Shown here: in pieces, positions 15,301 through 15,433 of the stretch
Layout: the number at the start of each line of letters is the position of its first letter
Position numbering within the stretch: position 1 is the first letter of the stretch
Source of the DNA: Actinomycetota bacterium
GTDB lineage: Bacteria; Actinomycetota; Acidimicrobiia; Acidimicrobiales; VFJN01
Assembly: GCA_009886035.1 (NCBI GenBank)
Contig: VFJN01000193.1
Span: 1-38,797 of the forward strand
DNA length: 38,797 nucleotides
Reading direction: 5' to 3'
The notes under the pieces: model-generated
The model's database searches: none
The model's input: only the letters and a program-made list of their open reading frames with translations
Told to the model about the DNA's origin: nothing
Program-made: the position numbers and the translations under genes

Positions 15301-15327
15301 AAAAACCTCCTGCCGGAGGCAGGAGGT
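15301..15327 (-). terminator. Attenuator terminator upstream of leuA
   Basis: Minus strand: ACCTCCTGCC pairs perfectly with GGCAGGAGGT (10 bp) around a 3-nt loop and is followed by TTTTTCTTT. A textbook intrinsic terminator placed between the leader frame and the leuA start. Confidence 0.9.
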
Positions 15328-15333
15328 CGAAAG

Positions 15334-15359
15334 GGCGAACGCCGGTAGGGGCGCTCGCC
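15334..15359 (-). promoter_or_regulatory. Leader hairpin starting at the leader-peptide stop (leuA)
   Basis: GGCGAGCGCC pairs with GGCGTTCGCC (10 bp with one G-U) around CCTACC on the minus strand. The 5' arm begins at the last base of the leader TAG stop. Probably the pause/protector stem of the attenuator. Confidence 0.7.
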
Positions 15360-15397
15360 TACATAAGCAGCAGGAGGGAGAAGGACGTCGTGCTCAT
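15359..15397 (-). CDS. leuL: leuA attenuator leader peptide ([12 protein letters not shown])
   Basis: A 12-residue frame ATG...TAG carrying four consecutive leucine codons (CTC CTG CTG CTT) near its end, immediately followed by a hairpin and an intrinsic terminator. This is the classical form of a leucine attenuation leader: slow decoding of the Leu codons under leucine shortage should favour read-through into leuA. The -10 box ends 6 nt before the ATG, so the transcript seems to begin at the start codon. Too short for the ORF track. Confidence 0.88.
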
Positions 15398-15403
15398 GTG
15401 TTT

Positions 15404-15433
15404 ATCTTTCCGCTCCGCCGCCTCGCCCGTCAA
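15404..15433 (-). promoter_or_regulatory. Predicted promoter of the leuA leader
   Basis: TTGACG (15428-15433), 18-nt spacer, AAAGAT (15404-15409), then 6 nt to the leader ATG. It overlaps the divergent upstream region of the sunset-domain gene at 15454. Confidence 0.6.

Follow-up and report, generated by a model that had tools for sequence, protein, structure and literature searches.

A probable leucine-sensing leader-peptide attenuator upstream of leuA in the Acidimicrobiales

The window, meaning the whole stretch of 38,797 nucleotides of Acidimicrobiales DNA analysed here, carries on its reverse strand the gene leuA for 2-isopropylmalate synthase (13546–15258), assigned from the sequence and from relatives. 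The ATG at 15258, with GAGGA ahead of it, suits the relatives better as the start of leuA than the in-frame ATG at 15282. Upstream on the same strand lies a compact leader region, which begins with two promoter-like boxes (15404–15433), TTGACG at 15433–15428 and AAAGAT at 15409–15404, separated by 18 nt. Six nucleotides after the −10-like box, an ATG at 15397 opens a probably leaderless leader ORF (15359–15397), also seen in relatives, whose putative control codons CTC CTG CTG CTT (15365–15376) encode four consecutive Leu residues and end one codon ahead of the TAG stop (15361–15359). The G of this TAG is at the same time the first base of a hairpin, hp1 (GGCGAGCGCC/GGCGTTCGCC; 15359–15334), with 10 pairs including one G-U. 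After a spacer of 5 nt, an intrinsic terminator, T, follows at 15328–15304, continued by TTTCTTT and a U-rich tail to about 15297. The boxes, the leader with its four Leu codons and the stop running into a 10-bp hairpin had been pointed out in a first-pass annotation, and all were found again in the sequence. The same annotation described a perfect 10-bp terminator with a U-tract; the terminator and the U-tract were borne out, while the stem has 11 pairs, one of them G-U, and not 10.

The promoter hexamers are weak when taken alone, and a consensus scan (spacer of 16–18 nt, 9/12 matches) lists none at this place, so support for them was taken from relatives, which carry the same boxes at the same distance to the start codon. 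With Rfam 15 at the gathering score, the whole window yields only a tRNA, and the leader element matches no family. A sub-threshold match to the alphaproteobacterial sRNA ar14 was seen at 15403–15301 of the reverse strand (29.5 bits against a gathering score of 58.8), and it is probably due to shared CCUCC-type sequence. In a search of plasmids, the only match was a short one of about 39 bases in Ensifer.

The leuA element is not alone in the window. A sequence-blind scan, which looks for a short ORF, its stop, an abutting hairpin and an abutting terminator with a U tail (cut-off score 23), returned three hits, located ahead of leuA (the top score), ilvB and leuB-ilvE-cimA. As controls, 30 dinucleotide-shuffled versions of the window together gave one hit at the cut-off, and 446 kb from other contigs of the genome gave none; judged by these sequence comparisons, the arrangement at leuA is not due to chance. 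The second element precedes ilvB, encoding the large subunit of acetolactate synthase (26037–27791, reverse strand). Its leader ORF (27877–27912, reverse strand, stop at 27879) begins with GTG 6 nt after the boxes TTGCCA-N17-GAAGAT, and the element itself (27822–27878, reverse strand) consists of hp1 at 27878–27847 and a terminator at 27843–27822. The third precedes leuB, ilvE and cimA, a probable operon (3588–7110, reverse strand) whose gene names come from reading the sequence. Here the boxes TTGACG-N18-GAGACT are followed after 7 nt by the GTG of a leader ORF encoding VSKHFQAVSSIV (7188–7226, reverse strand, stop at 7190), and the element (7137–7189, reverse strand) has hp1 at 7189–7165 and a terminator at 7160–7137. 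Thus, in all three elements, a promoter-like box pair ends 6–7 nt ahead of the start codon. No such element was detected by the blind scan directly upstream of leuS in this genome, nor at leuC-leuD (10078–12068, forward strand), which belong to the same cluster. The ilvB and leuS genes of this genome were confirmed by NCBIfam models, and several other gene names were assigned by reading the sequence.

The sister leaders of ilvB and leuB carry Ile, Val and Leu codons. Across the order, the element is present at 15/16 located ilvB genes and 12/25 located leuB genes, and three or more of the last seven leader residues are Leu, Ile or Val in all 15 ilvB elements and in 11/12 leuB elements. The control codons switch to Val/Ile before ilvB and leuB. 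This tracking of the operon by the codons is the strongest sign that the leader peptide is a sensor. In other parts of the phylum, this arrangement is also found ahead of a second LeuA type, of leuS and of ilvB (names from reading the sequences). The second LeuA type, about 25% identical to the LeuA of the window, is preceded by the same Leu attenuator in other lineages at loci L137, L139, L142, L147, L157, L162, L165 and L176. The stop-hairpin-terminator design with Leu codons also occurs at leuS genes of other Actinomycetota (L149, L153, L164, L170 and L172); in the leader at L170 the Leu codons are interspersed and form no run.

Conservation of the leuA element was followed through the Acidimicrobiales. 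LeuA was matched in 281/298 genomes of the order, some of these being weak matches to the second LeuA type. The nearest named LeuA record, with 95% identity, comes from a MAG that bears the name Candidatus Microthrix parvicella; numerous other relatives carry the label Acidimicrobiales. A parser that required a run of at least three Leu was applied to 128 leuA upstream regions and found the full set of parts in 108; after one false hit (L026) was dropped, the Leu run, stop, hp1 and T stood together in 107/127 regions. The run and the hairpins are kept together in relatives. Near their end, the leader peptides carry 3–5 Leu, mostly followed by one residue (T, M or V) and then the stop, which is TAG in 85/107 leaders. 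Hairpin hp1 begins at the stop codon (inside it in 77/99 cases), and T starts 0–6 nt past hp1, with a spacer of zero in 51/99. In many relatives, L011, L023 and L055 among them, ACATA or CATA is a frequent loop sequence of hp1, and a pairing partner for it was not found.

Both hairpins are also supported by covariation, as a search of the leuA upstream regions of relatives demonstrated. In an alignment of 76 sequences, 95.4% of the cells of hp1 and T are paired, compared with 42–53% in slid versions. Two-sided changes occur in 16/21 pairs (7.5 in shuffles), and compensatory cells number 88 (19.5 in shuffles). For hp1 alone, 9/10 pairs show two-sided changes. The pairs of hp1 and T rank at the top by mutual information, and no further run of pairs makes up a helix by this measure; a covarying third helix was likewise not found in the alignment of relatives. 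A covariance model built from the same 76-sequence alignment of hp1 and T finds only the leuA place in the genome of the window, where the other two elements differ in sequence. It matches 28 of 30 genomes of the order (drawn and listed), 50/397 genomes of a phylum sample and 37 of 77 named LeuA loci; among the 77 loci tested, there was no match at those labelled Corynebacterium, Saccharopolyspora, Cellulomonas or Glutamicibacter.

Codon use differs between the Leu run and the leuA genes. CTT accounts for 33.6% of the run codons, but for 3.5% of Leu codons when 30 leuA genes from this set are counted; CTG accounts for 20.8% of the run codons and 49% of those in the leuA genes. Where the run has four Leu, the excess of CTT is almost absent at the first of them (5/66). 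The use of a rare codon at the putative sensing positions is consistent with a ribosome acting as the sensor.

The first-pass annotation had also proposed that the transcript starts at the ATG of the leader. This was addressed with 64 leaders having exactly one in-frame ATG or GTG 4–14 codons ahead of the run; the set was limited to such single-start leaders because choosing starts by their promoters had to be avoided. In these 64 leaders, the −10 score has a sharp maximum when the box lies 6–8 nt ahead of the start codon; there, 59% reach 5.5 compared with 3–4% of controls. A five-of-six match to TTGACA at the expected place occurs in 59% of the 64 leaders and in 2% of shuffles; TTGAC is present in 36 of them and lies 35–38 nt upstream of the start in 32 of these 36. 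In a comparison of Shine-Dalgarno scores at leader starts and leuA starts, the latter scored weakly as well. The promoter geometry kept in the single-start relatives supports the proposal, and the leuA leader transcript likely begins at or next to the start codon. Leaderless leader peptides are already known in Actinobacteria, as reported for LeuL1 of leuA in Streptomyces lividans (PMC8079986) and the ilvB leader of C. diphtheriae (PMC5784534).

Taken as a whole, the element is very probably a leucine-sensing, translation-coupled transcription attenuator of leuA. That earlier assignment is strongly supported by the order-wide Leu run, the covarying hairpins, the terminator and the operon-matched codons of the sister elements. 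The parts, their conservation and covariation, the codon bias and the match between codons and operon are observed; the direction of regulation is one that we infer from the pathway. In the proposed mechanism, transcription would start at or beside the ATG, and a ribosome would load on the 5′ end with no need of a Shine-Dalgarno sequence and then read the Leu run; the rare codon CTT is abundant in the runs of relatives. When charged Leu-tRNA is ample, the ribosome would reach the UAG and cover the 5′ arm of hp1, T would form, and RNA polymerase would be released. When Leu-tRNA is scarce, the ribosome would halt on the Leu run, leaving hp1 free if it halts at the first codons, and transcription would enter leuA.

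The usual mechanism, in which a stalled ribosome leads to an antiterminator, was implied by the first-pass annotation and was not borne out, as neither folding nor covariation yields one. In foldings that put a ribosome on the start, on each of the Leu codons or on the stop, T kept on average 94–98% of its pairs; in three sequences with five Leu, 87% of the T pairs were formed. At every ribosome position tested, structures lacking T were all worse by about 20 kcal/mol. Likewise, no antiterminator helix exclusive with T was found among relatives by folding, pairing tests or covariation. Of the features of trp/leu-type attenuators, the element thus has the leader run of product codons and the terminator between leader ORF and gene, and it lacks a detectable antiterminator. 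The front edge of a ribosome lies about 12 nt past the point where the A-site codon begins. With this geometry, the 5′ arm of hp1 is covered once a ribosome has come to the stop, while one on the first Leu codons leaves hp1 untouched, so that pairing alone does not tell in which direction regulation runs. For the link from ribosome to T we favour, as quite possible if short of probable, a device that needs no competing helix: hp1, when folded against the base of T, may keep T from closing as it leaves the polymerase, or a halted ribosome may stay coupled to the polymerase. The 5-nt gap between hp1 and T in the window weakens the idea of steric hindrance. Readthrough of the stop codon or frameshifting into T was considered as a separate candidate and rejected: the frames past the stop are open in 93–98 of 107 cases (about 81.5 in shuffles), all three alike, and so give no hint of a coding frame.

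An alternative that we regard as unlikely is a classical trp-type attenuator missed by minimum-energy folding, in which GGYGC in the 3′ arm of hp1 would pair with the apex of T (GYGCC) while the 5′ arm is shielded by the ribosome. These two motifs can pair in 82.9% of cells (19–62% when slid), T bulges a C or U in 63/70 cases, and switching via a short overlap has been reported for ilvBNC of C. glutamicum (PMC11857589). However, their covariation is not above that of shuffles, full five-pair matches number 34/70 compared with 32 when partners are permuted, and the pairing energy is no better than with permuted partners. Moreover, the 3′ arm would be exposed only by a ribosome near the stop, which is the wrong sign for starvation. 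Considerably less probable still is pairing of the Leu run with the purine-rich 3′ arm of T, similar to the pairing of the Leu run with the leuA Shine-Dalgarno sequence in the actinobacterial LEU element. The two are complementary in most sequences, and the mean duplex of −11.5 kcal/mol is slightly better than with permuted partners (z −2.5) or with shuffled runs (z −5.5), but it is far weaker than T itself (−20.5 kcal/mol) and shows no covariation; the enrichment of CTT replaces C-G with U-G pairs in it, and a stalled ribosome would promote termination. A plain constitutive terminator or small RNA gene with a chance ORF is hardly credible: T is indeed strong and ribosome-independent in folding, but the Leu run is retained with the hairpins across the order (107/127 regions, with a parser demanding a run of three), its codons become Val/Ile before ilvB and leuB, and the run has a rare-codon bias. 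The LEU form itself was also rejected. When the Leu run was paired with the leuA Shine-Dalgarno sequence, as that form demands, its own partner was weaker than permuted ones (z +2.7), and, in contrast to a pseudoknot with no terminator, the leuA element has a terminator and no covarying third helix.

The attenuator of leuA can be placed among several known systems. LeuL1 of S. lividans (MRFGLLLLSCRGEGL), reported to be leaderless and to have no typical terminator (PMC8079986), and the leuA leaders of Corynebacterium (PMC8079986, PMC5784534, PMC4046766) likewise provide a short Leu-run peptide ahead of leuA; unlike at LeuL1, the stop codon here abuts hp1 and a strong terminator follows. The LEU element (Seliverstov 2005, PMC1262725) shares the Leu-run leader upstream of leuA and belongs to the same phylum, but is described as a pseudoknot with a stem between the Leu run and the leuA Shine-Dalgarno sequence and no obvious terminator, unlike the leuA element of the window. 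The ilvB attenuators of M. tuberculosis and C. glutamicum and the ilvB-II motif (PMC13236596, PMC11857589, PMC10272879) share a leader ORF rich in branched-chain amino acids and an intrinsic terminator. In the M. tuberculosis and C. glutamicum models, terminator and antiterminator are mutually exclusive, whereas the two hairpins of the leuA element lie next to each other and form independently. For M. tuberculosis ilvB1, a ribosome at the stop is proposed to mask the antiterminator and a stalled one to free it (PMC13236596); hp1 sits where that antiterminator would be, but has no overlap with T. LeuL2 of S. lividans (PMC8079986) shares the leaderless Leu leader, hairpin and U tract, but precedes leuS and not leuA. 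The mycobacterial polycysteine leaderless ORFs (Canestrari 2020, as cited in PMC13236596) are described there as leaderless short ORFs in which the amino acid that is sensed, in that case cysteine, is encoded as a run, and the mycobacterial cys operons have no conserved terminator hairpins upstream according to Seliverstov 2005 (PMC1262725).

No earlier account of leucine attenuation in Acidimicrobiales was found in the open-access literature, which is weak evidence of absence. We judge the element to represent an uncatalogued branched-chain attenuator family, in which a hairpin abuts both the stop codon and the terminator. It is counted as a new variant of known attenuators on two grounds: hp1 abuts the stop and the terminator with no antiterminator detected, and several branched-chain operons share a single design. 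A somewhat more tentative extension than the helix-free link is an order-wide family of leaderless attenuators with no antiterminator, in which the folding of hp1 according to ribosome position, or contact between ribosome and polymerase, might decide termination, and which in the window might govern leuA, ilvB and leuB-ilvE-cimA together. The findings extend leucine attenuation to Acidimicrobiales, with a consensus strong enough to build a covariance model on. Since several branched-chain operons are preceded by one design whose codons match the operon, the regulon would be readable from sequence, and the absent antiterminator offers a clean test case for ribosome control of intrinsic termination with no competing RNA helix.

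Most of the remaining leuA upstream regions of the order have another leader type, LLxLRLxxPxx followed by the stop, together with a hairpin and a purine-rich stretch ahead of leuA. This type resembles the published LEU element (PMC1262725), and it and the type with stop, hp1 and T look mutually exclusive. It was seen in some families of the order, at L072, L078, L083, L106, L114, L115 and L121, where the hairpin is a different one and the Shine-Dalgarno region of leuA is apparently paired.
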